Of a DNA stretch of 64,000 nucleotides, positions 1 to 24,006 are shown piece after piece. The notes below the pieces were generated by a model. It was not told the DNA's origin. It was given only the letters and a program-made list of their open reading frames with translations, and searched no databases. The translations under genes and the position numbers were made by a program. Each line of letters begins with the position of its first letter. The stretch's first letter is position 1. This DNA is from Porphyra umbilicalis (taxonomy: Eukaryota; Rhodophyta; Bangiophyceae; Bangiales; Bangiaceae): positions 1 through 64,000 of the forward strand of contig KV918796.1 of NCBI GenBank assembly GCA_002049455.2, given 5' to 3'.

Positions 1-112
1 GATTCTCCACCCACCGCCCCCGCGCACCAAAAGAAGCGCAAGGGTGGCGGGGACGTCCCCCGCCCCCCGCACCGCCAAAGCGAGCCCTACCACCTGTAAA
101 ATCGAGAAATCA
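1..112 (-). mobile_element. 5' end of a further LINE copy (copy 0)
   Basis: This is the beginning of a third element in the array; the rest lies off the left edge. It matches the first ~110 bases after the tRNA in the other two copies (near 8,120-8,233 and 23,815-23,921). On the minus strand it follows a tRNA-Asp remnant, as they do. It shows the array continues beyond the window. Where duplicated target ends and element begins cannot be set, because every copy has the same flank. Confidence 0.85.
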
Positions 113-190
113 CTCTCCCACCGGGAATTGAACCCGGGTCTCCCGCGTGACAGGCGGGCATACTAGATGTTGTCCAGGACCACTATACTA
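113..190 (-). pseudogene. 5'-truncated tRNA-Asp(GUC) between LINE copies 1 and 0
   Basis: On the minus strand this reads from tRNA position 8 through the discriminator base: D-arm with a D-loop insertion, anticodon arm with loop CTGTCAC (anticodon GTC), T-arm with loop TTCAATT, and the 3' acceptor strand TGGGAGA. The seven bases where the 5' acceptor strand should be are the LINE 3' terminus GATAAAC, which cannot pair with TGGGAGA. The A-box (TAGTATAGTGG) and B-box remain, so Pol III could still start here, but the RNA could not form an acceptor stem. It shares one D-loop base with the remnant at 8,234-8,311 that differs from the intact gene. Confidence 0.85.
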
Positions 191-216
191 GTTTATCACC
201 CAGGCCGGAGATAAAC
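191..216 (-). other. Terminal hairpin at the LINE 3' end (copy 1)
   Basis: The last 26 bases of the element on the minus strand are GTTTATC, a 12-base loop, then GATAAAC: a perfect 7-bp stem ending exactly where tRNA position 8 begins. The identical hairpin ends copy 2 (8,312-8,337). RLE-type LINE reverse transcriptases recognise structured 3' UTRs in target-primed reverse transcription, so this is a candidate recognition element (inference). Confidence 0.7.
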
Positions 217-337
217 TTTCCCTAACCAACTCCGCCGGGAGCCAAACCCCCCTAGCTACCAACCCTCCCCGCAATTTGATCCGCACCCAAAGGTCCACCC
301 GCAACCGAATCGTCACCCACCACCGGAATCCCAAAAC

Positions 338-3300
338 TCAACTCCGGCTGTATCCAACGGATACAGACCGGGCGTGGGACCGCCACAACGCCACAGACAC
401 GCGGCGAAGCAGCGTCGCGCGGGCGCCCGATCGGTCAGGACCCCCGAGGGAGTCCCGCAGCCACCGCGAGGTGGCTGGTCCGATCCGCCCAAACGCCTCC
501 CACACCAACGGCGTGAAGGTTTGGGTGGTGGCGGGCAGGGCGCCGGCGTACTTTGAGGCCTTGAGGGCCTCCCGCGCCACAGCCGCCGCAGCCCGCAGGG
601 GGGAAACAGCGGCCATCGCCACAGTGGCGTCGGTGAAGGGCGCCGACACAGACGCGTCGCCCCACACCACGACGCCCGACGCGGCGTGCGTCGCGCGCAG
701 GTCCGGGCGCAGTGCCCTCGGCCGCGCGCCACGACCGCCTCCACCTGCACTTCCGTCCATGACGGCGAAGCCCGCAGAGACTCCGCCACCAGGTGCACCA
801 AATGGTGGTGCAATCTGGTGCGCAGGCTCTGCTGCTTCGCACACGCCGACAGGAAGTGCCGCCCGTCGGCGTCGGCGCCGCGGCCGCAGCGGCACAGCGG
901 CGCCGGCGGCACCGACCGCGGCGGGGCGCCAAGCCACAGACGCACCGCCGCACGCATGGCCGCGCCGGGGATGACGTACCCGTCACCCCCGGCGTCGGCA
1001 GCGCCGACAGCCAAAGCGCGGCCCCGCCGCCCTGACACGCCGCCATGCCGCGCGCCGCCAGAGCGACAGCTCGGCGTAAATGCGCGCCCGGGCAGCGGCG
1101 TGCGCGGGGCGCGACAGGTCCCGCTGCGACGCCCGCGCCTCCCCCCCCAACAGGGATTGCCACGTTGGTGGCGAGTACGGCGCCGGGCTGTGTTGCCCGT
1201 CGGCGTGTGCGTTGGTCGCACCGGCGCCGTACTCCGAGTCGGGGGGGGGGGGGGCGAGCGAGTCCGCGCCCGCAGTGGGCGCCGCGTTCGGGCCGCCGCG
1301 CGCGCGCGACCACAGCGTGCCGGTGTCCGGCGCGACGCTGCGGGACCTGTGGGCGTCCAACAGGTCCAGCAGGCCCCGCCAAGGCGACAACTCCGGGCGG
1401 GTCGGGCGGCGGCGGCGGCGCGGGTGGGGGGGGGGGGGCGGCGGGTCGAGGTCCGCCGGGTTTGCCGGCGGGGGATACTCGACCACGCCCTCAGGCCCCC
1501 AAAACCACACCCCGCTCGCCGGCGGGGCGGCGGCCGCAGCCGCCGCTGCCGCCCCCCACCCGGCGGCGGCCCCAGAGAGAGAGCATAAGCCCCCCCCATT
1601 GAAACCGCCGCCGGCTGCCGCAGTCCGCGCCGTCGTCGGCATCATCACGCCCGAGCCGCGTTGGGCAGCCCGCGGCGGCCCCGTGCGGTGGCGGCCGCGA
1701 CGACACGGTTCCGCTTCCTGTGGTGGGTAGGCGGGGCAGGGCAGAGCCCACACCGGGTCCCCCGCCCGCCGCGGCGCCGGCGGCCCCGCCAACAGCCACC
1801 GGCGGTGGCCGCGACGCGGCCGACGATCCGCCGCCGCCGCCCGTCGCCGCTGCCGACGTCCGCACCGCAGCGGCCACGCCACTGCCGCCCGCCACCGCCG
1901 CCGACACACGCCCAGCCTCGAGGCGCCCGGCGGCAGATGCTCCCGCCGCCGCCGCCGCCGCCGCCGTCGCCCGAGGGTGGCCGAGACCCCCACCGGAGCA
2001 CCAGTCGCCTCCCCCGCCGCGGGCGGGTCGCCCTGGCCGGCCGCCCCGGTGACCCCACCATCCCCGACGGGCCCGCCGTCCGCCGGCCACCCGCGCAAGG
2101 CGAGCAGGCCGTCGGCCGTTGCGCGAAGGGCGGCGAAGTAGGCCGCCCCCGCCCGCAGCGCGTCGACGCGCGACGCCAGCGCAGCGGCGGGGGCGATGAG
2201 CGCCCGCCCCCCGATGCCCAGGCCGCCCATGGCCGGCGGCAGCGTCGCGCGTTCCAGCCCCGCCTGCTTGACGGCGGGGCTGTCACGCGCGTCGAACAAC
2301 AGCCGGCCGAGGACGGCCTGCGAGTCGGCGTCCACCGCCGCCGCCAACCGCGCGCCGGCAACCAAAGGCAAGGCCCGCAGCCAATAGTTGGCCCGCGGGC
2401 CAGCGCAAAGGCGCAGCAGCAACAGCTGCGCCTGCAGCTCGGCGGGGGGCAGCGCCGCGATGGCGGCGACGAGCTCGCGGTGCTCCGCCGCCACCGCGTC
2501 CTTCCCCGCCGACACGAAGTCGTCGTCGCCGAGGGGGACAGAGAACTGCACCACCCCCTCGGCGGACCAGCCCCCCATCCACCCCGCCGGCGCCGCCACC
2601 CCCGCCGGTGACCAGCCAAGGCACTTAGCGGGGGCAAGCTCAGCGTCAATCGCCGCCCCCACCGCGGCCGCATCCGTCATCACTGCGGCGAGCACCTCCG
2701 GCGGCCCCGCCGCGACCACGTCGTCGTGGAACGCGCGCACGAGGGCGCCGGGGTGCGCCGCCCGCAGCCGCGCCAGCACCAGCCAAAGTGCAGCGGCGTG
2801 CAGCAGCGGGCCGAGCGGGTCGCCCTGTTAGGCGCCCCGCTCAGCCGGCAGGCACAGCCGCGACGGCGGGGGCGGGGGGAGCGGCGCGGGCGTGTCGCCC
2901 TCATCCCCGCTGTTGTCCTCTTGCGGTGCCTCCGGCGCGGCGACGTCCCCCGACGTCCAGCCGTAGACGGACGGTGCCAACTCCCCGCCGTACATCGCCT
3001 TCATGTACGGCGCCACAGCAGGGAGGGCGCGCGTCAGCACCGCCTCGGCCGCCGCCCGTGACACCTGGTTGAAGGCGTTGCGGTAGTCGTACTGACCTAC
3101 CGCATGCCCAGGGTGGAGGGCCACGTGGGCGCCCAGCTCGTGGAGCAGGCGCTCGCACGCGCTAGACACCCCCACCCCGAGCTGCGACGGCGCGAACAGC
3201 TCCGCCGCCGCTGTCCGCACCGTCGCCGCCAACGCCGACGCCGCCAGCTTGTGCAGCGTCTCGGGCATGCCGATGGGCCAAAGCCACGGCAGACCGTCCT

Positions 3301-4847
3301 CCCGCACCCCACCAGGCTTGGTGAGGAGGAGGAGGTCGGCGCCCGCAAGCGCGTGCGCGGCGACCGCCGGCACGCAAAACACCAGCGCGTCCCCCGCGAG
3401 CAGCTGCACGACGGCGACGAGCGCGTCCTGACCAGCCGCCGTAAGCGCCCACAGTTGCTCGGGGCGGAGAACTGACGGACCCGGCGCCGCCGCGCGGGGG
3501 GCGCAGCGGATGGCCACCACCACCGCCTCCCGTGGCACCCTGCGCGGCCCCGTCGGGCGATCACCAAATTCCGCCGCCGATGCCAACTCGGCGGCGAACT
3601 CGGCCTCGAAGGTGGCCGTCGTCGCCGTCGCGGAGGCAGCGGGGGGGAAAAGGCCACGGGCCTTGGCCCAGACAGCGGCAGTCTGCGGCGCCGGTGCGGC
3701 GGCGCCCAGGGCGCGCGTCGCGGCGCTCAGCGGGCCAGCTCGCACAAGGCGGAGCGCGCGCCGCTGCAACGGGGTCGCGCGCACGGCCCCTTGGCCGCCC
3801 TGGTGGTCAGCCGGGTGCTGGACCGCCACCGGCGGCGCCCACCCCGCGCGCCAGGTCCCGGCGTTGTGGTCTGCGCGCGCGGCGACATAGTCGCCGCGCA
3901 GCACGGCGGAGGCGCGGTTGGCGTGGAAGAGAGGGGGGCGTGGCCGATCCGGCGCGTCGGCAGGCTCGCGCGCAGCACCGTGCAGCAGCAACAAGGGCAG
4001 CAGCAACAGCCACAGCCACGCCTTGCCGGGTTCATGCTGGCGGCGGACCCAGTCGAGGGCGTCCGCCGCCATCGTGTGCCACGCACCAAGCAGTGCAGAC
4101 GGCACGTGCTTGGTGATGCGCGCCTCGGACGCCACAAGTGGCGCCCAGGCAGCCGCCGCAGGGGCGACGCGCAGAAGAATTGCGTCACGCGCAGCGACCC
4201 AGGCGGCACGGTCGACCTTAAAAAGGTTGGCCACATCGCCCGGGTCGGGCGCCGCCTTGCCCTCGGCAGGCCCCGCCGCCGTTGCCGTCGCAGAGCGCCT
4301 CGTGGGCGCTCAGCGAGCTGCGGCCGCGGCGTCGCGCCGTGCGCTACGCCCGCTGGCAGTAGCGGCACCCCTTCAACCCCAAGTCCGCCGCCACCGCCGC
4401 CGTGAGTTCCCCGATCTTGTGGGCGCGGGCAATGTGGGTGAAGCCCCGCGTCGACCGCACGCCGTCGGGACGCACAACAGTGCAATCCCGGGCGGGGCAC
4501 GTCGCGGGACCTCCCGCTGCCACCGCCGCGCCCGCCGCAGCCGCCGCACCTCTGCCCGCGACGCCCGCAGGGCCCGCCAAGGCGCCCGCCGCGTCACCCG
4601 CCGCCGCACCGACCGCCGCCGCCGCCGCCGCCACCGCTGCACCGCCGTGTTGTCCGGCCGCCCCTGCCGCGGCACTACCCGCCACCGAGCCGCCACCATC
4701 ACCGGCAGGCCCGGCCGCCGCTCCACCCCCGGGTGGCGCACCCGCCGAAGCGGGGTGGCCACTCCCTCCCCCAGCGGACGCGGGCGCGGTGCTTGTTGAC
4801 ACGGCGCCTGCGCCCGCACCCGCGCCAGCCACGGGGTCGTCACTCAT
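338..4847 (-). pseudogene. LINE ORF2, copy 1: zinc fingers, reverse transcriptase, restriction-like endonuclease
   Basis: The polyprotein starts at the ATG at 4,847, inside the ORF1 stop region. An Ala/Gly-rich N-terminus leads to a C2H2-type finger (CPARDC then HIARAH, about 4,500-4,420) and a second finger (CRYC then HEALC). The RT domain spans about 4,230-2,000: motif A YDYRNAFN (3,070-3,097), motif B QGDPPGPLL (about 2,800), motif C FHDDVV (2,718-2,737), and a later VPLGDDDFV block. The C-terminus has a CxC...H...C knuckle (about 880-790) and an endonuclease block with RPDL, GDASV and LKASKY (about 715-545). Breaks: a TAG at 4,344-4,346 in the second finger (shared with copy 2), CAA to TAA at 2,828-2,830 just before motif B, and a one-base deletion near 717 relative to copy 2. 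The product would make and insert cDNA at a nicked tRNA gene in the nucleus. Confidence 0.85.
4840..4847 (-). promoter_or_regulatory. ORF1 stop / ORF2 start overlap (ATGAGTGA)
   Basis: On the minus strand the ORF2 ATG (4,847-4,845) is followed at once by the ORF1 TGA (4,842-4,840), an 8-base start/stop overlap. Copy 2 has the same arrangement at 20,546-20,539. Termination-reinitiation at such overlaps is known for some two-ORF non-LTR elements. Its conservation in both copies supports both reading-frame assignments. Confidence 0.75.
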
Positions 4848-7800
4848 GGCGACCTTCGTCGCTGACGCGGGCCGCCGCGCCCGGCCGATAAGGCCCGGGC
4901 GTGGCGGGGGGTGAAGGCGGGTGCGTGAGTGCCAGCACGGCAGGCGCGGCAGCCCCGGCCGGCGTCGCCGCCGCGGCAGCCAACCTGGTGGTGAGCGGGC
5001 CGAGCAGGCGGCGGCGCTTGGCCGAGGCTGGCGACGCCACCGGCGACACGGAGCGCGGCCGCATGGCCGCGCGGGCCGGGCGCGGGCGCGCGCCGGCAGC
5101 GCGGGCGGGCGACCGCGTCGGCGCGCCCGTACGCGCAACTGCGGATACGCGGGGCGGTCGCCGCGGCGGCACGCGCGGGCGGAAGACCAGCGTCCCGTCG
5201 TCGCCTGCCGTGGCGCCGCCGTCGGCAACGCCGCGTTTGCGAACGCGGCGCGCGGATGGCAGTTCGACCGCGGCGGCCGCCACCGCATCCGCGATCGCGG
5301 CCGCCGTGGGCGGCCGCAACGGCGGAGGCGGAGCCGACAACCCCGCCGCCGCCGACACGCCCAGCGTGAGCGAGGCGGTGGCAGTGGGGGCGCGGCGCCG
5401 GCGACGGCGACAACCAGGCACGCCCGCGGCCGCCGGCAGCCGGAACGGCACAGGCGACAAGGGGGCAGGAAGCCACGCAGCCAGCAGCGGCGGCAGCGGC
5501 GCGCCGCGGCCGGCGACCGGCGACGATGGCAACGCGGGCGGCGCCACGAGCGCCGCAGGCGTGCGCGGCGACGGCGGCGAGGCCCGCGTTAACGGCGGCG
5601 CGGCTGCGGCGGCGACAGCGGCAGAGGGCGTGGCGCGCGTCGCACCGCGCGCCAGAGTCGTGGGCGCGGGCAACGGGGGCGGTGCCGCCGAGGGCGACGT
5701 GGCCCCGCCGGCCGCGGCCGCGACACGCGCCCCGACCGCGTTCTGTGTCGGTGGGGTACGTGCGCGGGCCGCGGGCGACGTGGCGGCGTCGGCGGAGGCG
5801 GCCCCGGTCGCGGTAGCGATCGAATTTGCCGCGGCCGGGTTGGCGGCGACAATTCCCTCCATCGTCGTCGCCGCCATCCCCATCGCGCCGCCGAAGTGCC
5901 GCTCGGCGGGCGGCGGGGACGGCCGCCGATCCGCATGGGATTGGCGGGCGGGGTTCCGCCCCGCCCCGCCAACCAAAACCGGCGTGCTGCTTACAGCGCC
6001 CGCCGGCCGGGCCGCCACGCGAGCGGCGGCACCGGGCAGACGTGCCGCAGCCGGACTGGCAGCCGCGCTGGTGGCCGACCTCCCCCGCGGATGCGCGGCA
6101 AGCAGGCTCCGGACGTGCGCCTCCAGGGCTTGGCGCACGGGGAGGCGCAGCGCGCCACGCCGGGGCAGCTGCGCCAGCTTGTCCAGCAGCCGCTGGCGGC
6201 AGTACCCCGCCGACACCTCCGCCGCGCGCTCGCCGCCGCCCAGCGCGCGGCGCCGAGCCGGGACGAGCAGCGCTGGCGACCACGGGTCGACGCCGGGGAG
6301 GACACGCAACACCGTCGCTGCGTGTTCCCGGCCCGCCGCCGCCACAAACGCGGGGACCGCAGCGGCGACCAAAGTTACCTCGGTCGCCGCGCCGCAGCGG
6401 TCGACGTCCACAATGGCATGGACGTCGACCCCCGTGACTTCCGCCAGCAGCGCCCGAAGGCGGTGCTGGCGGACGTCCCGTGACACCCCCGAGACGTACA
6501 ACGTCTCGAGGGTGAGCAGCGGGGGCGGCCGCCGCCGGCCGTGCGTTAGCTCCGCCGCCGCGGCGGCCGCGCGCGCGTCCGCGTCTTCGCCCCGGACCGC
6601 CATCCACCCTCGCGCCGCACCACAGTCGTCCCCTTCGAGGCCGCCGGCCCCCCGGCCGGCAGCACCCTCGTCGCTTCGGGCGTCGCGCGCGACCGCATCG
6701 CGCCGCGCCCGACCCGCAACCGCCGCAAGCCAGCCGCCGCGCGCGACCGCATCGCGCTGTGCAGCACCCCCAAAAGAACCAAGACGAAACGCACCGAGCC
6801 GGACATCTCCACCAGGGCAGTTCTCCACCATCTTGTCACTTACCTTGGTTCTTGAAATCTTGCCACCTTGGCCGCCCTTGCCGCCCTTGCCGCCCTTGCC
6901 GCCGTTGCCGTACTTGCCGCCCCTTGAAACAGCGGCAGAACCTTGCACGGCGGGGGGGAGAGGGCCAACCCAGGCAGGCGCGCGAGCAGGCGCAGCACCG
7001 GCGCCCGCCGACACGCCCGCCTCAACTGCCCCCCCCCCGCGCCGACCGCCGCGGCGGCGGCGGCGGCCAACCAGCGTCCACGCCTCGCCGTCGTCGGCGG
7101 CGGAGGCGCCTTGGAAGGCATGAACGCCCGCGGGTGGGGCGCCGCCAGGCGCCGCGCCGCCGCCGGGCTCGTCAATGCCCGGCGGCGGTCCGCCGGCACC
7201 CCGGCCACGCCCACCAGCGGCGGCCACAGCCGCCGCACCAACCGACGCAACACGCACAGCGTCGGGGGCCGCGCCGGGAGGGGGCACCCCCCCAACCACC
7301 ACCCCCGCCGCACCCCCAACACCCCCGACCGCCCGCGCACCTTGGGGGAGAACGGGCGGGCGTGCACCGCCAAGCACACGACCGCCAGGGCGAGCACCGC
7401 GCGCGCGCGCACCGCCGGGAGCACCGCCGGCCGCACCCGCAAGAGAAAGAAGACCACCGCCGGCACCCAGACCGGCACCCGACACGCCCCCGGCAGTACC
7501 GGAAACGTGGGGCCCCCCCCCACAGGGGGGGACCGACAGACACCGCCCCCCCCGCGCCAGCACCCAAAGCGGGCCCGGCGGAAAGGGGACGCAGCGGCAG
7601 ACCGGCAAACCCCGGATCCGCGGCCGCAGCCGCCGGAAAAAGACCGCCAGTGGGCGGGGGGAGGGGGGGGAAGGCCCCCCCCACAGGTCCCCCGAGGGGG
7701 AGCCGACAGCGCGCCCGCCAGGGGCGGGCGGGGGTGCGACGCCCGCTCTCACCCCCGTACGGGCCGGTGGTGGCGGCGAGCGGCAAGACCGGTCGCCGAC

Positions 7801-8214
7801 CACAAACGCGGGGACGCGATTGGACTGGATTGCGCAAATTATGCGATCCAGTAATTCCAATCGCGCCACCGGCGTCGCCGTAGTGCTCACGAGGTCGAGA
7901 ACCGCCGCCACAGCGGTCCCCGCCGCCACCACCTCTGCCCCCCCCCCGCCATCACACACGCCCCCCCCCTCCCTCCAACCGCACAAACAAAGAGTCTCGA
8001 TGCCCCCCGTCCCCGATCCGCCCAAAACCTCCCGCGCCGCCGCCGCCCCGGCGCGCCCGCGCGCCGCCCCGTCGTCCTCCCCCGCCGCCGGCCCCAAACG
8101 CCCCCCCAACGCCCCGATTCTCCACCCACGCGCCCCCTTCGCGCACCAAAAGAAGCGCAAGGGTGGCGGGGACGTCCCCCCGCCCCCCCGCACCGCCAAA
8201 GCGAGCCCTACCAC
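4840..8214 (-). CDS. LINE ORF1, copy 1
   Basis: One frame is open for about 1,124 codons, but its first codon is GTG in the leader, so the true start is probably an ATG further in and was not settled. The middle carries a Gly/Lys repeat (GGKGGKGGKGG, about 6,860-6,920). It is followed by a folded-looking segment beginning LETLYVSGV (about 6,525-6,080) with alternating hydrophobic strands, which resembles the RRM-like nucleic-acid-binding module of other LINE ORF1 proteins; that match is by eye. The C-terminal third is Ala/Arg/Pro-rich. The likely role is RNA binding in the ribonucleoprotein particle. The stop TGA overlaps the ORF2 start. Confidence 0.65.
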   Translation of the reverse strand: MVGLALAVRGGGGTSPPPLRFFWCAKGARGWRIGALGGRLGPAAGEDDGAARGRAGAAAAREVLGGSGTGGIETLCLCGWREGGGVCDGGGGAEVVAAGTAVAAVLDLVSTTATPVARLELLDRIICAIQSNRVPAFVVGDRSCRSPPPPARTGVRAGVAPPPAPGGRAVGSPSGDLWGGPSPPSPRPLAVFFRRLRPRIRGLPVCRCVPFPPGPLWVLARGGRCLSVPPCGGGPHVSGTAGGVSGAGLGAGGGLLSLAGAAGGAPGGARARGARPGGRVLGGARPPVLPQGARAVGGVGGAAGVVVGGVPPPGAAPDAVRVASVGAAAVAAAGGRGRGAGGPPPGIDEPGGGAAPGGAPPAGVHAFQGASAADDGEAWTLVGRRRRRGGRRGGGAVEAGVSAGAGAAPARAPAWVGPLPPAVQGSAAVSRGGKYGNGGKGGKGGKGGQGGKISRTKVSDKMVENCPGGDVRLGAFRLGSFGGAAQRDAVARGGWLAAVAGRARRDAVARDARSDEGAAGRGAGGLEGDDCGAARGWMAVRGEDADARAAAAAAELTHGRRRPPPLLTLETLYVSGVSRDVRQHRLRALLAEVTGVDVHAIVDVDRCGAATEVTLVAAAVPAFVAAAGREHAATVLRVLPGVDPWSPALLVPARRRALGGGERAAEVSAGYCRQRLLDKLAQLPRRGALRLPVRQALEAHVRSLLAAHPRGRSATSAAASPAAARLPGAAARVAARPAGAVSSTPVLVGGAGRNPARQSHADRRPSPPPAERHFGGAMGMAATTMEGIVAANPAAANSIATATGAASADAATSPAARARTPPTQNAVGARVAAAAGGATSPSAAPPPLPAPTTLARGATRATPSAAVAAAAAPPLTRASPPSPRTPAALVAPPALPSSPVAGRGAPLPPLLAAWLPAPLSPVPFRLPAAAGVPGCRRRRRRAPTATASLTLGVSAAAGLSAPPPPLRPPTAAAIADAVAAAAVELPSARRVRKRGVADGGATAGDDGTLVFRPRVPPRRPPRVSAVARTGAPTRSPARAAGARPRPARAAMRPRSVSPVASPASAKRRRLLGPLTTRLAAAAATPAGAAAPAVLALTHPPSPPATPGPYRPGAAARVSDEGRHE

Positions 8215-8233
8215 CTGTAAAATCGAGAAATCA

Positions 8234-8311
8234 CTCTCCCACCGGGAATTGAACCCGGGTCTCCCGCGTGACAGGCGGGCATACTAGATGTTGTCCAGGA
8301 CCACTATACTA
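8234..8311 (-). pseudogene. 5'-truncated tRNA-Asp(GUC) between LINE copies 2 and 1
   Basis: Same structure as 113-190: complete from position 8 to the discriminator, with the LINE 3' terminus GATAAAC (8,312-8,318) in place of the 5' acceptor strand. The anticodon GTC lies at 8,270-8,272 (as GAC on the plus strand). The T-stem CCGGG/CCCGG and anticodon stem CCCGC/GCGGG are perfect. The D-loop insertion is present with a T where the intact gene has C. Confidence 0.87.
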
Positions 8312-8337
8312 GTTTATCACCCAGGCCGGAGATAAAC
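8312..8337 (-). other. Terminal hairpin at the LINE 3' end (copy 2)
   Basis: Identical GTTTATC/GATAAAC stem to copy 1, ending directly at tRNA position 8. Two copies with the same terminus and the same tRNA junction fix the 3' end of the family. Confidence 0.7.
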
Positions 8338-8459
8338 TTTCCCTAACCAACTCCGCCGGGAGCCGAAACCCCCCTAGCTACCAACCCTCCCCGCAATTTG
8401 ATCCGCACCCAAAGGTCCACCCGCAACCGAATCGTCACCCACCACCGGAATCCCAAAAC

Positions 8460-11400: not shown

Positions 11401-12229
11401 GATAGGCCGAAGCCCCGGCAGACCGTCCTCCCCCACCCCACCAGGCTTGGTGAGGAGGAGAAGGTCGGCGCCCGCAAGCGCGTGCGCGGCGACCGCCGGC
11501 ACGCGCGACACCAGCGCGTCCCCCGCGAGCGGGTGCACGACGGCGACGAGCGCGTCCTGACCAGCCGCCGCAAGCGCCCACAGGTGCTCGGGGCGGAGGC
11601 CCGACGGACCCGGCGCCGCCGCGCGGGGGGCGGAGCGGATTGCGCCCACAACCGCCTCCCGTGGCACCCTGCGCGGCACCGTCGGGCGGTCGCCAAAGTC
11701 CGCCGCCGATGCCAACTCGGCGGCGAAATCGGCCTCGACGGTGGCCGTCGTCGCCGTCGCGGAGGCAGCGGGGGGGAAAAGGCCACGGGCCTTGGCCCAG
11801 ACAGCGGCAGTCTGCGGCGCCGGTGGGGCCGCGCACAGGGCGCGCGCCGCGGCGCTCAGGCGCCCCGCCCGCACAAGGCGGAGCGCGCGCCGCTGCAACG
11901 GGGTCGCGCGCACGGCCCCTTGGCCGCCCTGGTGGTCAGCCGGGTGCTAGGCCGCCACCGGCCGCGCCCACCCCGCGCGCCAGATCCCGGCGTTGCGGTC
12001 TGCGAGCGCGGCGACAAAGTCGCCGCGCAGCACCGCGGCGGCGCGGTTGGCGTGGGAGAGCGGGGGGCGCGGCCGATCCGGCGCGTCGGCAGGCGCGCGC
12101 GCAGGGGCGTGCAGCAGCAACGAGGGCAGCAGCAACAGCCACAGCCACGCCTTTGCGTGCTCCGGCTGGCGGCGGACCCAGTCGAGGGCGTCCGCCGCCA
12201 GCATGTGCCACGCACCAAGCAGTGCAGAC
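8460..12229 (-). pseudogene. LINE ORF2, copy 2, C-terminal part (RT and endonuclease)
   Basis: Better preserved than copy 1 through the catalytic region: motif A DYRNAFN (about 11,190-11,220), motif B GAQQGDPPGPLL intact (about 10,930-10,970), motif C FHDDVVA (about 10,850), then VPLGDDDFV. The C-terminal knuckle and endonuclease (RPDL, GDASV, LKASKY) are in one frame from about 9,070 to the stop at 8,460. The middle, about 9,150-10,150, is Gly/Pro-rich with C and G runs of 8 to 14 where the frame changes, so some breaks may be assembly errors. A TAG near 11,949 interrupts the region before the RT. The N-terminal part lies beyond the hAT insertion. Confidence 0.85.
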
Positions 12230-12360
12230 CAGGGGTTGTCATGGATATATCCTGTAGGGATATATCCGAGCATTATAATCGTATCCTCCTCTGATACGAG
12301 CCGCTGCGGTGTATCCGTATCCAAATGTGCTTTGGAAACTCTGCCATTAATATTCTGAGG
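12230..12360. repeat. hAT left end: TIR and subterminal motifs
   Basis: Begins CAGGGGTTGTCATGG, then palindromic ATATATCC words near 12,243-12,270 and further TATCC/GATAC words to about 12,330. This is the likely transposase-binding region and lies outside the transposase gene. Confidence 0.85.
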
Positions 12361-12639
12361 CACGACTCGAGCAGCGCATTATATCGTATTCTCCTTGTAC
12401 TTATTATGTCCGAGTATATCCGGCCTGCGGGTGGGACCGGGACCATCTAAAAGCCGCTGCCGGCGCTTCTAGAGATATTCTGGAGCCAGAGCGCTTCAAT
12501 TGATCTGATCACACCCCTGGTCGCTGTGGCATCGGTCATAACGGGGCACAGCCTCCCAGCCCGCGACGCCAACTGTCTCTGCCAGCAACGTGCTGCTCAC
12601 GCTCCCGCTCTGCTATTCCCCCAACCTCACTCAACAAGC

Positions 12640-15261: not shown

Positions 15262-17551
15262 ACTGTCGTGGGTAGCGGGGTCGGCCGTGCTTCGCTTCTT
15301 TTTTTGCTTGTTAGACGATGGTTGTCGTCGCGTTAATCGCTAGGTACAGCACGCCGAGCTCGTGCAGTCACCTGTCATCTTCGCTCCCCCTGAATCCGTG
15401 CCCAGTTGACGTCCCTTCAGGTGCCGGTGAGGTGAATGGCCGCGGCGGCGCCGTGTGTGCTAGGGTACCGGTGTAGAAGCGATCAGAGAGACTGGGCCGG
15501 AGACAGCGGGCGGTCGGATTGCTGGCGCAGCGGGGATGAGAACAGACGGGCTGCATCCTGCGAGCAGGTACGGGCGACGTCGTGTCGTTTCCCGTGCCGT
15601 GCGAGGCTGAAGAAACAAAGAGGTGAGAGGTGGACGTGAAAGACGAGCGCTAGTCTGGCGGTGGGGTGGGTGACCGCCAATGCGCAAGACACTCTTTTAC
15701 GAGAGCCCACGCCAGCGAGAACACGCGTCATAAAGAGGCACCTGCGAGGCGGAGGACGTTCCTATGCACCCCCTCTCACCAACGCCACCTCATTGGCCTT
15801 CTGCAGGGGTGTGCCGACGGTGCTTGGCACAGCTACGGTGCCCGCGCGATAGACCAACACTGTCATACCTGTCCTGAGACGAGCAGACTGCAAAGACAAC
15901 CGAGACCGCGAAGTGGTCTGCCACGGTCAGTCTCCACGCCCCCGTTGCGTTGACGGCGTCGGGCGGCGCCGGACCGGCAGGGTTCGCCAAAGCCAGCTTG
16001 CCCATCTGCAAAGACGGAGGCGCGCCGACGTTGCCTGCCAACGCGAACTGGCCCGCCTCAGCCGCGCTCGGCACTGCCGCCGCGTCGACGGCCATGGTCG
16101 GGAAGGTGCAGAAAGCAGCCACCGCAAAAAACGTGCCAGCCTCGGCTGCTGTTCTACTCCGACCGTGTTGTTGGAGCCCGGGCGCGGGCGGGCGGGCGCC
16201 GACCGGCACCGCCAGCCTTCCCCCCTCCCGCAGCCCCACCGTCTGGCATAGCGAGGTCGGGCGGTTGAAGAGGCCGACCGCGACGCCAGCTTGTCCGCCC
16301 CTTGTCGCCGCTTGAAGCGGGCACGTCCCCGCCAGCCACAAGCATCAGCTTGCCCACCTCCGCGACCACCCAGACACCCGCCGTGTAAAGCCTTGGGCGG
16401 GTGCGCGGCGCTGCCGACCGACATTTTGGGCTTGCCCTCCTCCCCCCCCCCCGGGACACAGCCATCGTCGTCAACGGCCGCACCTTTTGCTGCTTGGCAT
16501 AACGGGGTATCATCAGGCAACAGGTAGCCACCTTGAGAGTGACGGCAAGGCCTTCAGCCGAGCGGTCGCTTCGGCAGTCTGCTGCTGCGACTTGGACACC
16601 GCCACGCTGATGACGCGCGTGCCGGCCTCGCCCACCGCCAACTTGAAAACGGCAATGCACTTGAAGGTGGCTCACGGGGGCAGTAGAAAAGGGGGGGAGG
16701 GGCCGGAGGAGAAAGTGAGGAGGCCGTCGCTGGCAGGGAGCGCGGCAGCCTCGGCCACCGCATCGCCGCGTGGGCGGGGGAGACTCTGGGCCGTGGCGGA
16801 GTCACCGTTGGGCGTGCCGGCCGCTGGGGCGTGAGAGGCGGACGCCGCGCTACCTCAGACTGCTCTGAAACCGCTGGCGCTCGTTGAGGCCTCCGCAAGG
16901 AGCGGCTACCCAGGGGCGATTTGCAGAGACTGGGTTCGGGGCGTGCCACGACGTGCGTGTTCAATAGTCTCGGGCACGTTCCAGCTCGCGCGCATGCCGA
17001 CGGGCCCTGAAAAATGGGTCCGGCGGCGAAAACAATGCCAGTGGCACCGGCGGCGGCGGCGGCCGCAGTGGCAATAAGAGCATTCGTGGTATTCCGCGTT
17101 CTCGTTTTCGAAAATGTTTTCTTGCTGATAGAAAAAGATGTCCGTTTTCCACTTCCACCCCCAGCACCCCTTGTTCGGCACCCCACGCACCCCACAGACG
17201 CTGGAGCGGCGCGCGCCGCTCCAACGTCGCGTGTCAGGAGCGGCCAGCGCGCTTCAGGGTGCCGAGGCTCGCGGACGTCGCGTAGAGGTGTGAGTGGAAG
17301 AGTACAGCATCGTCCAGTTACGGCAGGGGCCGTTCGTCCAGGGCGGCGAGCGCACCCGACCGCCACTCGCTATCGTCCTACCCACCGCTGACGTTGCTAC
17401 GACCAGCGCCATATTCAATCCCAGTCCAGAGGGCCGGCGGGGGCGTCGGCGTGACAACGCGGGAACAGAGAAGCGTGGCGGGGAAAGGACGCACTGACGC
17501 AAAGCCGCCGGAAACTATAATGGCAGGATAAGCTGGCAGCAGCCCGACAGG
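15262..17551. other. hAT internal region without a recognised gene
   Basis: About 2.3 kb between transposase and passenger ORF. Both strands have open stretches. On the minus strand, roughly 16,680-15,790, fragments in different frames read like diverged copies of one Ala-rich segment (for example KLALANPAG and FKLAVGEAG), possibly a degraded captured host fragment; I do not recognise the family. A C-rich run lies near 16,441-16,452. No promoter, RNA gene or terminator could be supported. Confidence 0.4.
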
Positions 17552-19312
17552 GTGCAGCAGCCAACCGGGCAGCAGCCCGGCGGGGTGCAGCAGCCGACCG
17601 GGCAGCAGCCCGGCGGGGTGCAGCAGCCGAGCGGGTGGACGCTGGGCGCAGCGGGCTGGGTGCCGACCGGCGGGGAGTCGGGCGGTGCGCAACTGGGCGG
17701 CGTGCCGATGGGCGTCGCGCAGCTGGGCGGCGCGCAACTGGGCGGCGTGCAGCTGGGCGGCGCGCAGCTGGGCGACGCGCAGCTGGGCGACGCGCAGCTG
17801 GGCGTCATGCCTGTGCGGCCGGCCGAGGGCGTGCGGCCCGACGAGGCTGGGGCGACCGAGGCGGGGGTGGGGGCGCTGTTGGCGGCGACAACGCCGTCGG
17901 CGGCGACGGACGTGACGTCGTCGGCGGCGACCGACTCGACGCCGTCGGCGGCGACCGACTCGACGCCGTCGGCGGCGACCGACTCGACGCCGTCGGCGGC
18001 GACCGACTCGACGCCGTCGGCGGCGACCGACTCGACGCCGGCCGGGTGGACGGTGGTGGGCGGGGCGCGGATGAAGGCGGACGGCTCTGAGGCGTTGCGG
18101 TTGACGCCGACCGGCCTGGCGCCGGCCGGTTCGATGCCGTCGGCCCCGACGCCGACGATGGACACGGCGGCGCTGACCGGTGCGGCAACGTTCGGGGCGA
18201 CGGCGAGCGGCATCAAGCCGTCGGACGTGACGCCGACGGACGCGGCGCCGTCGGGCACGACGCCGACGGACGCGGCGCCGTCGGGCACGACGCCGACGGA
18301 GGCGGCACCTTCGGGCACGACGCCGAGCGGCTGGACGGCGGTCGGCTACAAGCAAACGACCGACTCGACGCCTTCCGGCGTGACGCCGTCGGGCGTGACG
18401 CCGTCGGGCGTGACGCCGTCGGGCGTGACGCCGTCGGGCGTGACGCCGTCGGGCGTGACGCCGTCGGGCGTGACGCCGTCGGGCGTGACGCCATCGGGCG
18501 TGACGCCGTCGGGCGTGACGCCATCGGGCGTGACGCCATCGGGCGTGACGCCGTCGGGCGTGACGCCGTCGGGCGTGACGCCGTCGGGCGTGACGCCGTC
18601 GGGCGTGACGCCGTCGGGCGGGGAACCGACGCGGCGGACGCCCAGCGGCACCCGGCCGGGGTTGCTGGCGGGGGCGGCGGGCGCGCTGACGGCGGGGCTG
18701 GGGGTCGTGGGCGCGGCGGTGCTGCCGGGGGCGGCCAAGCCGGAGGAGGGAGACGAGGGGGAGTCGGCCGAGGAGGGGGCGGACATGCCCGACACGACGG
18801 ACGCGGCGGTGGTGGCGGCGGCGGGGTCGAGCAAGACTCCGTCGTCGGCGGGCACGACGCCGACGGCGGCGGGCACGACGACGTCGTCGGGAGCGGCGAG
18901 CAAGACGCCGAAGCGGCCGTCGGCGGCCGGCAAGAAGCCGAAGCGGCGGCCGTCGGCGGCGGGCAAGCAGCCGACGCCGTCGGCGGCGGGTGTGACGCCG
19001 GCGGCGGTGGGCGACGAGCCGACCGCGGCGTTGGAGGAGGTGGCGCCGGTGGTCGGTCAGCCGACCGAGGCGGCGGGCGCGCCCGTCGGCGGCGAGGTGG
19101 GCGGCCGCAAGCCGTCGCGCGCGGAGCCGGCGGGCTTCAAGCCGGGCAGCTCCAAGCCGGCGGCGGTGACCGGGGGGCAGCCAGCGGGCGTGCAGCCGGC
19201 GGGCGTGCAGTCGACCGGGTCGGATCCGACCGGCATACAGCCGGCTGGGCACGCGCCCCGAGGGCCCCCCGATCACCCACCCCCAAGCGTGCTCGATGGA
19301 CCCAGGCAGTGA
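17552..19312 (+). CDS. Mucin/adhesin-like low-complexity passenger ORF in the hAT
   Basis: An open frame of 586 codons entered at GTG; the first in-frame ATG is at 17,708, so either it starts there or an upstream exon exists. The protein is Ser/Thr/Pro/Gly/Ala-rich and almost entirely built of short repeats in order: QQPTG/QQPGG, AQLGG pentads, five ATDSTPSA octads, SGTTPTDAAP decads, and about sixteen SGVTP pentads. It ends in a Lys/Pro/Ser/Ala-rich tail. The reading is like an O-glycosylated wall or secreted protein, but no signal peptide or anchor is visible. The antisense strand is also open, as expected for 15-bp repeats, so coding is likely but unproven. It sits inside the hAT ends and moves with the element. 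Confidence 0.5.
   Translation: MQQPTGQQPGGVQQPTGQQPGGVQQPSGWTLGAAGWVPTGGESGGAQLGGVPMGVAQLGGAQLGGVQLGGAQLGDAQLGDAQLGVMPVRPAEGVRPDEAGATEAGVGALLAATTPSAATDVTSSAATDSTPSAATDSTPSAATDSTPSAATDSTPSAATDSTPAGWTVVGGARMKADGSEALRLTPTGLAPAGSMPSAPTPTMDTAALTGAATFGATASGIKPSDVTPTDAAPSGTTPTDAAPSGTTPTEAAPSGTTPSGWTAVGYKQTTDSTPSGVTPSGVTPSGVTPSGVTPSGVTPSGVTPSGVTPSGVTPSGVTPSGVTPSGVTPSGVTPSGVTPSGVTPSGVTPSGVTPSGGEPTRRTPSGTRPGLLAGAAGALTAGLGVVGAAVLPGAAKPEEGDEGESAEEGADMPDTTDAAVVAAAGSSKTPSSAGTTPTAAGTTTSSGAASKTPKRPSAAGKKPKRRPSAAGKQPTPSAAGVTPAAVGDEPTAALEEVAPVVGQPTEAAGAPVGGEVGGRKPSRAEPAGFKPGSSKPAAVTGGQPAGVQPAGVQSTGSDPTGIQPAGHAPRGPPDHPPPSVLDGPRQ
17931..18040 (+). repeat. 24-bp tandem repeat in the passenger ORF
   Basis: About five units of a 24-bp word encoding TDSTPSAA, nearly identical, indicating recent slippage or unequal exchange within the reading frame. 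Confidence 0.85.
18373..18620 (+). repeat. 15-bp minisatellite (SGVTP repeat)
   Basis: About 16 units of a 15-bp word (TCGGGCGTGACGCCG) with only synonymous G/A changes visible between units. The unit length keeps the frame, and the array likely varies in copy number. Confidence 0.92.
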
Positions 19313-19489
19313 AGAAAGTGGGAGGCTGGGTCACGATTGTGCTGGCTGCCGGAACGGCCCGCCCGTGGCCACATGACTCATCGGGCGCTGTGGCACTCTG
19401 TCGCCCCCGTGCTTCGTCAAGGCGCTTTGATTGGCCGCTTCGACCTTACCATATGGCGTCGGGTCTAGGTCCGATCCTGAAGGCCGGAA

Positions 19490-19706
19490 ATTTGAAAGAA
19501 GCGGAATATATCCGAATATAGATCCATATCCTATCCACACTCCTTCGATTCAAATATTGGGTTATAATCTTCACATATATCCTGACACCTGGGAAAGAAT
19601 CCTGATCCGGATCCACGACAGACGCATATATCCGTATCCGTACTTGTCGAAAGTATGCTGGAATATATCCGACTTCAAGAGAAATCATGTATCCTGACAA
19701 CCCCTG
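19490..19706. repeat. hAT right end: subterminal motifs and TIR
   Basis: An AT-rich block with repeated ATATATCC, ATATCCG and GGATCC-like words (about 19,500-19,690), closing with TGACAACCCCTG, the inverse of the left TIR. Similar words occur in the short hAT elements at 61,768 and 63,463. Confidence 0.85.
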
Positions 19707-19714
19707 GTGCAGAC

Positions 19715-20546
19715 GGCACGTGCTTGGTGGTGCGCGCCCCGGACGCCACAAGTGGCGCCCAGGCAGCCGCCGCAGGGGCGACGCGCAGAAGGAATGCGTC
19801 ACGCGCAGCGACCCAGGCGGCACGGTCGACCTCAAAGAGGTTGGCCACATCGCCCGGGTCGGGCGCCGCCCCGCCCTCGGCAGGCCCCGCCGCCGCCGCC
19901 GCACCCGCGGCCGGTGGCGCGGCTGCAGCAGCCGCCGCAGCCGCCGCCGCACGTGCGGCAACCGCCCGCTGCTTGCGGGGGTTGCCGTCGCAGAGCGCCT
20001 CGTGGGCGCTCAGCGAGCTGCGGCCGCGGCGTCGCGCCGTGCGCTACGCCCGCTGGCAGTAGCGGCACCCCCCCAACCCGAGGTCCGCCGCCACCGCCGC
20101 CGTACGTTCGCCGATCTTGTGGGCGCGGGCGATGTGGGTGAAGCCCCGCGTCGACCGCACCCCGTCCGGAAGTACAACAGTGCAATCCCGGGCGGGGCAC
20201 GTCGCGGGACCCCCTCCGCCACCGCCGCGCCCGCCGCAGCCGCCGCACCTCCGCCCGCGACGCCCGCAGGGCCCGCCAAGGCGCCCGCCGCGTCACCCGC
20301 CGCCGCACCGACCGCCGCCGCCGCCGCCGCCACCGCTGCACCGCCGTGTTGTCCGGCCGCCCCTGCCGCGGCCCAACCCGCCGCCGAGCCGCCACCATCG
20401 ATGGCAGGCCCGGCCGCCGCTCCACCCCCGGGTGGCGCACCCGCCGAAGCGGGGTGGCCACTCCCTCCCCCAGCGGACGCGGGCGCGGTGCTTGTAGACA
20501 CGGCGCCTGCGCCCGCACCCGCGCCAGCCACGGGGTCGTCACTCAT
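19715..20546 (-). pseudogene. LINE ORF2, copy 2, N-terminal part (zinc fingers)
   Basis: Starts at the ATG at 20,546, overlapping the ORF1 stop as in copy 1. It holds an Ala/Gly/Pro-rich linker, the first C2H2-like finger and the CRYC...HEALC finger, with an in-frame TAG at the same place as copy 1 (about 20,044-20,046). A frame change precedes the first finger. About 87 bp near 19,890-19,980 is absent from copy 1. The ORF continues beyond the hAT at 12,229. Confidence 0.75.
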
Positions 20547-23500
20547 GGCGACCTTCGCCGCTGACGCGGGCCGCCGCGCCCGGCCGATAAGGCCCGGGCG
20601 TGGCGGGGGGTGAAGGCGGGTGCGTGAGTGCCAGCACGGCAGGCGCGGCAGCCCCGGCCGGCGTCGCCACCGCGGCAGCCGACCTGGTGGTGAGCGGGCC
20701 GAGCAGGCGGCGGCGCTTGGCCGAGGCTGGCGACGCCACCGGCGACACGGAGCGCGGCCGCATGGCCGCGCGGGCCGGGCGCGGGCGCGCGCCGGCAGCG
20801 CGGGCGGGCGACCGCGTCGGCGCGCCCGTACGCGCAACTGCGGATACGCGGGGCGGTCGCCGCGGCGGCACGCGCGGGCGGAAGACCGGCGTCCCGTCGT
20901 CGCCTGCCGTGGCGCCGCCGTCGGCAACGCCGCGTTTGCGAACGCGGCGCGCGGATGGCAGTTCGACCGCGGCGGCCGCCACCGCATCCGCGATCGCGGC
21001 CGCCGTGGGCGGCCGCAACGGCGGAGGCGGAGCCGACAATCCCGCCGCCGCCGACACGCCCAGCGTGAGCGAGGCGGTGGCAGTGGGGGCGCGGCGCCGG
21101 CGACGGCGACAACCAGGCGTGCCCGCGGCCGCCGGCAGCCGGAACGGCACAGGCGACAAGGGGGCAGGAAGCCACGCAGCCAGCAGCGGCGGCAGCGGCG
21201 CGCCGCGGCCGGCGACCGGCGACGATGGCAACGCGGGCGGCGCCACGAGCGCCGCAGGCGTGCGCGGCGACGGCAACGAGGCCCGCGTTAACGGCGGCGC
21301 GGCTGCGGCGGCGACAGCGGCAGAGGGCGTGGCGCGCGTCGCACCGCGCGCCAGAGTCGTGGGCGCGGGCAACGGGGGCGGTGCCGCCGAGGGCGACGTG
21401 GCCCCGCCGGCCGCGGCCGCGACACGCGCCCCGACCGCGTTCTGTGTCGGTGGGGTACGTGCGCGGGCCGCGGGCGACGTGGCGGCGTCGGCGGAGGCGG
21501 CCCCGGTCGCGGTAGCGATCGAATTTGCCGCGGCCGGGTTGGCGGCGACAATTCCCTCCATCGTCGTCGCCGCCATCCCCATCGCGCCGCCGAAGTGCCG
21601 CTCGGCGGGCGGCGGGGACGGCCGCCGATCCGCATGGGATTGGCGGGCGGGGTTCCGCCCCGCCCCGCCAACCAAAACCGGCGTGCTGCTTACAGCGCCC
21701 GCCGGCCGGGCCGCCACGCGAGCGGCGGCACCGGGCAGACGTGCCGCAGCCGGACTGGCAGCCGCGCTGGTGGCCGACCTCCCCGCGGATGCGCGGCAAG
21801 CAGGCTCCGGACGTGCGCCTCCAGGGCTTGGCGCACGGGGAGGCGCAGCGCGCCACGCCGGGGCAGCTGCGCCAGCTTGTCCAGCAGCCGCTGGCGGCAG
21901 TACCCCGCCGACACCTCCGCCGCGCGCTCGCCGCCGCCCAGCGCGCGGCGCCGAGCCGGGCCGAGCAGCGCTGGCGACCACGGGTCGACTCCGGGGAGGA
22001 CACGCAACACCGTCGCTGCGTGTTCCCGGCCCGCCGCCGCCACAAACGCGGGGACCGCAGCGGCGACCAAAGTTACCTCGGTCGCCGCGCCGCAGCGATC
22101 GACGTCCACAATGGCATGGACGTCGACCCCCGTGACTTCCGCCAGCAGCGCCCGAAGGCGGTGCTGGCGGACGTCCCGTGACACCCCCGAGACGTACAAC
22201 GTCTCGAGGGTGAGCAGCGGGGGCGGCTGCCGCCGGCCGTGCGTTAGCTCCGCCGCCGCGGCGGCCGCGCGCGCGTCCGCGTCTTCGCCCCGGACCGCCA
22301 TCCGCCCTCGCGCCTCACCACAGTCGTCCCCTTCGAGGCCGCCGGCCCCCCGGCCGGCAGCACCCTCGTCGCTTCGGGCGTCGCGCGCGACCGCATCGCG
22401 CCGCGCCCGACCCGCAACCGCCGCAAGCCAGCCGCCGCGCGCGACCGCATCGCGCTGTGCAGCACCCCCGAAAGAACCAAGACGAAACGCACCGAGCCGG
22501 ACATCTCCACCAGGGCAGTTCTCCACCATCTTGTCACTTGCCTTGGTTCTTGAAATCTTGCCACCTTGGCCGCCCTTGCCGCCCTTGCCGCCCTTGCCGC
22601 CCTTGCCGCCGTCGCCGTCCTTGCCGCCCCTTGAAACAGCGGCAGAATCTTGCACGGCGGGGGGTAGAGGGCCAACCCAGGCAGGCGCGCGAGCAGGCGC
22701 AGCACCGGCGCCCGCCGACACGCCCGCCTCAACTGCCCCCCCCCGCGCCGACCGCCGCGGCGGCGGCGGCGGCCAACCAGCGTCCACGCCTCGCCGTCGT
22801 CGGCGGCGGAGGCGCCTTGGAAGGCATGACCGCCCGCGGGTGGGGCGCCGCCAGGCGCCGCGCCGCCGCCGGGCTCGTCAATGCCCGGCGGCGGTCCGCC
22901 GGCACCCCGGCCACGCCCACCAGCGGCGGCCACAGCCGCCGCACCAACCGACGCAACACGCACAGCGTCGGGGGCCGCGCCAAAAGGGGGCACCCCCTCA
23001 ACCACCACCCCCGCCGCTCCGCCAACACCCCCGACCGCCCGCGCACCGTGGGGGACAACGGGCGGGCGTGCACCGCCAAGCGCACGACCGCCAGGGCGAG
23101 CACCGCGCGCGCGCGCACCGCCGGGAGCACCGCCGGCCGCACCCGCAAGAGAAAAAAGACCACCGCCGGCACCCAGACCGGCGCCCGACACGCCCCCGTC
23201 AGCACCGGAAAGGTGGGGCCCCCCCCCACAGGGGGGGACCGACAGACACCGCCCCCCCGCGCCAGCACCCAAAGCGGGCCCGGCGGCAAGGGGACGCAGC
23301 GGCAGACCGGCAAACCCCGGATCCACGGCCGCAGCCGCCGGAAAAAGACCGCCAGTGGGCGGGGGGAGGGGGGGGAAGGCCCCCCTACAGGTCCCCCGAG
23401 AGGAAAGCCGACAGCGCGCCCGCCAGGGGCGTGCGGGGGTGCGACGCCCGCTCTCACTCCCGTACGGGCCGGTGGTGGCGGCGAGCGGCAAGACCGGTCG

Positions 23501-23921
23501 CCGACCACAAACGCGGGGACGCGATTGGACTGGATTGCGCAAATTATGCGATCCAGTAATTCCAATCGCGCCACCGGCGTCGCCGTAGTGCTCACGAGGT
23601 CGAGAACCGCCGCCACAGCGGTCCCCGCCGCCACCACCTCTGCCCCCCCCCCGCCATCACACACGCCCCCCCCCCCCCTCCAACCGCACAAACAAAGAGT
23701 CTCGATGCCCCCCGTCCCCGATCCGCCCAAAAACTCCCGCGCCGCCGCCGCCCCGCCCCGTCGTCCTCCCCCGCCGCCGGCCCCAAACGCCCCCCAACGC
23801 CCCGATTCTCCACCCACGCGCCCCCCCCGCGCACCAAAAGAAGCGCAAGGGTGGCGGGGACGTCCCCCCGCCCCCCCGCACCGCCAAAGCGAGCCCTACC
23901 ACCTGTAAAATCGAGAAATCA
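20539..23921 (-). pseudogene. LINE ORF1 and leader, copy 2
   Basis: Matches copy 1 ORF1 throughout but the frame is broken into at least three pieces: about 21,981-20,539, 22,787-21,690 and an upstream piece. The LETLYVSGV segment (about 22,225-21,780) and the Gly/Lys repeat (about 22,560-22,620, one unit different from copy 1) are both present. One break, near 21,780, is a one-base difference in a C run (CCCCGC against CCCCCGC in copy 1). Confidence 0.75.
23907..23910 (-). terminator. Pol III T4 terminator of tRNA-Asp
   Basis: TTTT on the transcribed strand 12 nt after the tRNA 3' end, inside a run repeated after every tRNA copy in the array. It would also stop Pol III transcription from entering the LINE. 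Confidence 0.6.
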
Positions 23922-24006
23922 CTCTCCCACCGGGAATTGAACCCGGGTCTCCCGCGTGACAGGCGGGCATACTGGATGTTGTCCAGGACCACTATACTAT
24001 GGAAGA
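23922..24006 (-). tRNA. tRNA-Asp(GUC) with a 13-nt D-loop insertion; intact head of the LINE array
   Basis: All arms can be drawn on the minus strand. The acceptor 5' strand TCTTCCA pairs with 3' strand TGGGAGA (six Watson-Crick pairs and one G-U), and the discriminator is G. The D-stem is GTAT/GTAT, the anticodon stem CCCGC/GCGGG with loop CTGTCAC (anticodon GTC), and the T-arm CCGGG-TTCAATT-CCCGG. A normal tRNA-Asp D-loop is about 8 bases (AGTGGTCA). Here 13 extra bases (CCTGGACAACATC) sit between AGTGGT and CA, and CTGGA/TCCAG within and next to them can form a 5-bp hairpin. Ectopic D-loop introns are known in the red alga Cyanidioschyzon; removal here is inferred. A, B boxes and a downstream T4 are present. 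Confidence 0.9.

Follow-up and report, generated by a model that had tools for sequence, protein, structure and literature searches.

RLE-type LINEs that very probably insert into tRNA-Asp and tRNA-Gly genes of the red alga Porphyra umbilicalis and spare the upstream gene

The start of contig C36 of the Porphyra umbilicalis assembly, a stretch of 64,000 nucleotides (nt) referred to here as the window, carries on its minus strand an array of tRNA-Asp sequences and copies of a long interspersed nuclear element (LINE). Comparison of this array with the rest of the genome searched (83.8 Mb, 665 contigs) makes it very probable that LINEs with a restriction-like endonuclease (RLE) insert into the tRNA-Asp(GTC) genes of this red alga, and a sister lineage into its tRNA-Gly(CCC) genes, that insertion duplicates 60-93 nt of the target and that the upstream gene is spared. 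Read along the minus strand, the array consists of a complete tRNA-Asp, LINE copy B, a tRNA fragment, LINE copy A, a further fragment and the start of a third copy (Table 1).

Junctions with tRNA-Asp and tRNA-Gly genes

The two partial Rfam tRNA matches in the window, at 8242-8311 and 121-190, each begin at model nt 8 and are preceded by an identical 3' end of the element (...GATAAAC), whereas the complete tRNA is preceded by a different sequence plus the matching acceptor strand TCTTCCA. The motif that begins at nt 8, TAGTATAGTGG, occurs at three sites in the window with at most one mismatch, compared with 0.09 expected, and none of 100 shuffles reaches three. The Rfam matches confirm the coordinates and the nt 8 junction, just past the 7-nt acceptor strand, that the initial annotation had given for two copies. 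Its further claim, that the upstream side of the copies begins after the 3' end of a tRNA, also holds: the retrieved 5' starts adjoin nt 73 of a tRNA.

Across the genome, a search with the 3' end gave 29 matches and a search with the 5' start gave 40; both returned the best candidates only, and the counts are therefore lower bounds. All 14 retrieved Asp-type 3' ends join tRNA-Asp at nt 8 (C24 two, C271 four, C36 two, C394 three, C457 one, C628 two). In the sister family (C210, C481 and C596), all five retrieved 3' ends join tRNA-Gly(CCC) at approximately nt 13; the junction, AATAAAC followed by TAGTGGTAATC, corresponds to tRNA nt 13 or to nt 8 minus one 5-nt repeat. A check for copies ending at unrelated sequence found none among these 19 ends (14 Asp, 5 Gly). 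The exact junctions at all 19 support the sequence-specific targeting that the initial annotation considered likely, although the target is not tRNA-Asp alone, as the sister family uses tRNA-Gly.

A pattern scan for the terminal motif returned 44 sites (15 for a control pattern), 16 of which are termini of the two families and lie within the 19 retrieved; three mutated termini, two on C271 and one on C457, complete the 19. The other 28 sites have a sequence unlike the LINE termini and were left out of the junction count. These sites (for example, C26:176520 and C58:283374) are dispersed near-palindromes such as GTTTATACGACCCGGTCGTATAAAC and GTTTATATAGTAGGTACTATATAAAC.

Nine tRNA-Asp genes with a host 5' flank were retrieved, and six of them (C24, C36, C179, C394, C438 and C491) are followed by the element, which is not the case for those on C137, C188 and C334. 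Among four tRNA-Gly(CCC) loci, those on C17, C210 and C481 are occupied and that on C147 is not. The tRNA-Asp at C137:5059-5121 has no D-loop insert and carries an insert of ~12 nt in the T arm, and the C147 tRNA-Gly has a D-loop insert of ~30 nt that is absent from the occupied tRNA-Gly genes. Slightly more than half of the 49 tRNA matches retrieved (25/49) fall on a single contig, C665, which is plastid-like in appearance. A tRNA-Glu pair on C86 was considered as a further array and rejected, the flanks of the two genes being unrelated over 261 nt each.

Locus barcodes and the origin of the tRNA fragments

A D-loop insert of 14-29 nt, probably an intron, is present in eight of the nine tRNA-Asp genes and differs from locus to locus, so that it can be used as a barcode of the locus. 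Introns at odd places in tRNA genes, including the D loop, are described for the red alga Cyanidioschyzon merolae (PMC3978253). When the eight complete genes were taken as references and the last insert base was excluded, all seven fragments on contigs that hold a complete gene (C36, C394 and C24) were nearest to their own gene, five at a distance of 0, one at 1 and one at 3. In the window, the barcode of the fragment at 8234-8311 equals that of the complete gene except for the last base. The seven fragments on C271, C457 and C628, where no complete gene is present, have their best matches in C438, C36 or C179, and for one of them this match is weak (6 changes).

The LINE copies within an array are of mixed kinship. 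The two 3' ends of C24 lie in different clades with a support of 1.0 (tree of 10 of the 14 Asp-type 3' ends), and one 5' end of C394 clusters with copies from C179, C24 and C438 with a support of 0.97 (tree of 18 5' ends). Fragments that carry the local barcode, in arrays whose LINE copies differ in clade, point to repeated insertion that duplicates the local target, and the tRNA fragments make most sense as long target-site duplications of 60-93 nt. The initial annotation is to be corrected in this respect. The repeated tRNA-derived stretch measures 78 nt at C36, 93 nt at C179 and 60 nt in tRNA-Gly, and the element starts after nt 73 every time, which suggests that the second cut is set by the end of the tRNA and not by a fixed distance.

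The fragment might instead belong to the element, as a 3' tail or as a 5' promoter for RNA polymerase III (Pol III), in which case the true target would be the spot after a tRNA-Asp or tRNA-Gly gene. Elements with tRNA-derived parts are common, and unit and fragment do recur here as one block. Additionally, the complete genes of C24 and C394 each differ from their own fragments at one base near nt 8-12, where the fragments have the common form; under repeated insertion, the element RNA could have served as template for the first few nucleotides of a fragment. A carried fragment would, however, be expected to show the barcode of its donor, whereas all seven same-contig fragments are nearest to their own gene despite the mixed clades of the LINEs, and the Asp and Gly lineages would each need a separate tail. 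This explanation is very unlikely.

We regard it as highly improbable that tRNA genes already stood in tandem pairs and that the element entered the downstream member, deleting its first 7 nt and the spacer. The end picture, an intact gene upstream and a fragment lacking its 5' part downstream, would be the same as that of the LINE Utopia in the U2 arrays of Phytophthora (PMC4640811), and tandem gene copies would have common barcodes. The four unoccupied loci, on the other hand, contain a single such tRNA each within ~3 kb, and six Asp and three Gly loci would each require a deletion that begins precisely at nt 73 of the upstream gene.

Segmental or tandem duplication could also have spread a few insertions together with the tRNA gene, the specificity then being apparent only. 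Related upstream flanks are shared by C36, C394 and C438 (85-93% over 219-585 bp); judging from this similarity, the three tRNA loci arose from one by old duplication and are not independent targets, which leaves approximately four flank-independent Asp groups instead of six. The flanks of C481 and C210 show a weaker match (74% over 348 nt), and some neighbouring copies are 99-100% alike at the 5' end, which indicates that tandem (local) duplication also occurs. By contrast, C179 and C491 (Asp) and C17 (Gly) have no upstream flank in common with another occupied locus, and C24 shares only 84 nt at 77% with C36. In C36 and C394, the first units agree at 93% at the 5' end, compared with 85% for the flanks, which fits an insertion after the two loci split, though other pairs between these two arrays range from 88 to 96%. 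The barcodes track the loci, whereas the clades of the units do not, and related lineages occupy two different tRNAs. Descent of all copies from one locus, which the initial annotation had named as the case to be checked, is contradicted for C179, C491 and C24, and the six occupied tRNA-Asp loci differ in barcode; among C36, C394 and C438, the tRNA loci themselves do descend from one. Duplication as the general explanation is accordingly rated as hardly probable.

The unoccupied loci on C334, C188 and C147 have a common stretch farther upstream that is probably a dispersed repeat. As to a possible age gradient along the arrays, the most diverged 5' end lies at the far end of the array in C24 and C271 but not in C394. 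The unit at C628:3801-13700 is composite: its first 5 kb are 91-94% like copy A, and the remainder belongs to a second Asp lineage, a 5' part of which is present at C438. A unit of similar length, with the same kind of 3' end, is present on C271.

Encoded protein, element class and the upstream gene

The coding region of copy A is disrupted by stops and frame changes, and copies A and B look dead, or the assembly contains indel errors. The longer frame of the sister family (C210) matches Pfam RVT_1 with an E value of 9e-6 and 26 bits, below the curated cut-off of 29.6 bits. A protein search with this frame found 26 relatives from 8000 scored candidates; the nine relatives with a named source come from Pyropia vietnamensis, Pyropia yezoensis or Porphyra umbilicalis. 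Taken together with the tRNA matches on the plastid-like contig C665, these names point to a bangialean red alga as host. One relative, P0001 (1438 aa), is 96% identical over 43% of the query in the best alignment and has one long open reading frame (ORF), in contrast to the frame-broken window copies. In this protein, zinc-finger motifs (CPATGC..H..H and CRWCQ..H..C) stand N-terminal of the reverse transcriptase (RT) and are followed by CCHC and endonuclease motifs. The RT motifs QGDPLGPLLH and FHDD are found in the frames and homologues, and PF00078 is present in the precomputed annotation of P0003, P0007 and P0015.

In the CCHC-endonuclease region, C22, C24, H34 and C39, P85 and D86, D101, and K133, K136 and Y137 are invariant in all five aligned rows. 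The best match of a four-row profile of this region in the PDB is 8gh6_A (E 0.002), which we take to be R2Bm, and the sole other match is an unrelated enzyme (E 1.7); PDB sequence searches with the sister-family frame or a 13-row profile gave no match at E <= 1. A C-terminal CCHC followed by a PD..D..K endonuclease is a mark of RLE-type LINEs. On its RT, CCHC-endonuclease and N-terminal zinc-finger motifs, the family is classified as an RLE-type non-LTR (long terminal repeat) retrotransposon of the R2/NeSL/CRE group.

In an RT tree confined to 22 of these 26 relatives, P0002 and P0005, one for each Asp lineage, group at 98, and the Gly protein P0001 lies apart from this pair; several deeper nodes are weak (30-55). 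Over the best stretches, identity is 93% between P0002 and copy A and 95% between P0005 and the second Asp lineage. The route through P0025 leads to distant relatives in a large, mostly metagenomic RT group, which was not used for any conclusion. No relative was found in the viral contigs searched.

These domains bear on a further explanation, in which a circular form integrates by site-specific recombination and the tRNA piece is the attachment site, as for bacterial islands. The direct repeats of the tRNA 3' part at both ends and the tandem arrays do resemble attachment sites. However, the element has RT and RLE-like domains, Pfam scans of selected (not all) frames from the window and the sister family revealed no recombinase, and a crossover would mix the barcodes of donor and locus. 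Such recombination is scarcely credible.

Insertion of an RLE-type LINE in the manner proposed would keep the upstream tRNA gene whole. In the 3' part of the tRNA (52 nt), none of the six complete occupied genes is changed, compared with five of the 14 fragments. A T-run follows shortly after the element start: TTTT at +11/+12 is present in 15 of 16 distinct Asp-type 5' ends and T6-7 at +32 in all five distinct Gly-type ends, identical 60-nt 5' ends being counted once and the ends being related and hence not independent. The background of TTTT is 297 of 4264 45-nt stretches of the window (7%), and T-runs also lie at +7 to +13 in four host flanks (C334, C188, C147 and C457). The T-run is a possible Pol III terminator that the element supplies for the upstream tRNA. 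Among known RNA families (e.g. ribozymes) at the 5' end of the element, none but tRNA reached the gathering score.

A number of observations weigh against repeated, gene-sparing insertion by RLE-type LINEs. At three of the nine occupied loci (C438, C491 and C17), only 5' parts of the element (~5.2, 0.4 and 1.7 kb) match, and no 3' junction is present in the 10 kb read there; the C179 element reaches the contig end, and only one probable right-hand array end is seen, on another contig (C457). The barcode match of C24:261352 is narrow (it is 3 changes away from its own gene and 4 from each of three other genes), the gene and the fragments of C36 differ at the last insert base, and C271 contains two barcode types within one array, through recombination or misassembly. 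C628 and C271 may represent a single array in two copies. Within the 12 nt starting at nt 8, two of the six complete genes (C24 and C394) and three of the 14 fragments carry a change. With regard to the protein, the RT match of the sister frame is under the cut-off, the RT pieces of the window itself give no Pfam match at E <= 1, and the structure model of the endonuclease is poor (pLDDT, a model confidence score, of 42) and of no help for the class. The T-run columns are conserved in 11-12 of 12 sequences, no more than several other 5' positions. Finally, a 3' terminal hairpin as a selected structure was rejected: the inverted repeat is present, but three 82-nt ends show no more folding than shuffled sequences do (z 0.93, -0.66 and 0.27).

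The coordinates of the features are collected in Table 1. The hAT-like element inside copy B encodes a C-terminal dimerisation domain in an ORF on the plus strand, and its end sequence recurs in the last LINE copy on C457. Elsewhere in the window, an ORF at 46233-49355 (minus strand) matches Transposase_21 and an ORF at 34627-36798 (plus strand) matches Exo_endo_phos, each possibly from a mobile element, and a long array of 18-bp direct repeats extends from 37505 to ~39300.

Table 1. Features of the tRNA-Asp/LINE array in the window
Feature	Position	Strand	Basis
Complete tRNA-Asp(GTC), target gene at the upstream end of the array; 14-nt D-loop insert, probably an intron	23922..24006	-	Rfam tRNA 53.6 bits, model nt 1-71; host flank upstream
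LINE copy B, ~8.1 kb without the internal hAT-like insertion	8312..23921	-	97% identity to copy A
tRNA-Asp fragment, nt 8-73, 78 nt including insert, read as target-site duplication	8234..8311	-	Rfam and barcode
LINE copy A, ~8.0 kb, broken reading frames	191..8233	-	Alignment to copy B, frame inspection
Second tRNA-Asp fragment, nt 8-73	113..190	-	Rfam, junction and barcode comparison
Third LINE copy, 5' start, cut by contig end	1..112	-	Window 1-190 matches the start of copy A at 96%
3' terminus GTTTATC...GATAAAC, copy A	191..216	-	Terminal-motif comparison
3' terminus GTTTATC...GATAAAC, copy B	8312-8337	-	Same sequence as copy A
RT-coding part of copy A, stop-interrupted	986..4309	-	Motifs QGDPLGPLL and AFHDD; homologous proteins
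Part of copy A that codes for CCHC and endonuclease (PD..D..K..KY), over two frames	316..1641	-	CCHC in frame 316-1641, endonuclease core in 341-790
Frame of copy A with N-terminal zinc-finger motif (CPARDC...H...H, CRYCQRA)	4347..5588	-	Motif also in homologues
T-run at element +12, which may terminate Pol III transcription of the adjoining upstream tRNA	8219..8222, also 23907-23910 and 98-101	-	
hAT-like insertion within copy B, 7.5 kb, not part of the LINE	12230..19706		8-bp duplication GTGCAGAC, ends CAGGGGTTGTC

Proposed mechanism and known systems

In the proposed mechanism, the element would nick the bottom strand between nt 7 and 8 and prime reverse transcription at the nick, and the top strand would be cleaved after nt 73. 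Such staggered cuts would duplicate 60-93 nt and keep the upstream tRNA gene complete, so that the same gene stays open to new hits and tandem arrays can grow. The T-run of the element (TTTT at +12; T6-7 at +32 in the Gly family) may take over as the Pol III terminator. A wider interpretation, which we hold with as much doubt as confidence, is that a red-algal retrotransposon clade renews its own landing site: it would duplicate the body of the tRNA together with the internal promoter boxes (from nt 8 or 13 to nt 73), keep a working gene upstream and bring a terminator, in Asp and Gly forms of one layout and with the second cut set by the tRNA 3' end.

The arrangement suggests a harmless way to occupy an essential gene. 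It also bears on the ways in which RLE LINEs select or switch targets and persist in essential genes of low copy number. The natural barcodes separate insertions from duplications by sequence alone. R2 enzymes are of interest for targeted insertion, and so are proteins that direct a LINE to a tRNA gene.

New here are the Asp and Gly targets and their split, the probable host group, the gene-sparing duplication supported by barcodes and the T-run near the 5' end; site-specific RLE LINEs, even tRNA-specific ones, are already known. An RLE LINE in tRNA-Asp, tRNA-Gly or red-algal tRNA genes was not found in literature searches, whose scope excluded Repbase Reports and most subscription papers, and a term search of the review PMC5911963 gave no match. 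The statement in the initial annotation that no RLE element with a tRNA-Asp target is described is in line with this result, to which should be added that RLE LINEs are known for tRNA-Pro, tRNA-Arg and tRNA-Glu (PMC4640811).

Several other elements are comparable in one aspect each. All 19 retrieved 3' ends are followed by tRNA and not by the 28S rRNA gene, the target of R2. For R9, an exceptionally long target duplication was reported in 2009. R9 is an R2 derivative of rotifers (PMC5035012) and differs in its 28S rDNA target, whereas in the present elements an entire small gene remains upstream after the duplication. The DNA transposase and short duplication of Dada elements are replaced here by RT and RLE-like domains and a repeated target stretch of 60-93 nt. 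The target duplication of Dada measures 6-7 bp, and TRE5-A of Dictyostelium inserts at a distance from tRNA genes instead of at an internal base and has no RLE. TRE5-A is alike in being a non-LTR retrotransposon aimed at tRNA genes (PMC5391098). The Dada-tD elements of fish share the tRNA-Asp target but are DNA transposons, and the site of the related Dada-tV is given as the anticodon arm (PMC8869645).

The closest comparisons lie within the NeSL group. Utopia is a NeSL-clade RLE LINE specific to U2 small nuclear RNA genes, and in the U2 arrays of Phytophthora, the intact gene upstream and the fragments downstream were explained by an inferred deletion (PMC4640811). It resembles the present elements as an RLE LINE in a low-copy small-RNA gene with an exact 3' junction and in its order of N-terminal zinc fingers, RT, C-terminal zinc finger and RLE. 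It differs in its U2 target, whereas all 19 retrieved 3' ends here are followed by tRNA-Asp or tRNA-Gly, and in the fate of the target: an inferred deletion in oomycetes, no duplication in arthropods and 20 bp in reptiles, compared with 60-93 nt here. Its hosts are Amoebozoa, SAR (stramenopiles, alveolates and Rhizaria) and Opisthokonta, and the word alga is absent from the text of PMC4640811. Three NeSL-related LINEs, NeSL-1_TV (tRNA-Pro), LIN15_SM (tRNA-Arg) and LIN25_SM (tRNA-Glu), are likewise RLE-group LINEs that reside in one kind of tRNA gene (PMC4640811); compared by target and host alone, they differ from the elements described here in both the tRNA and the host.

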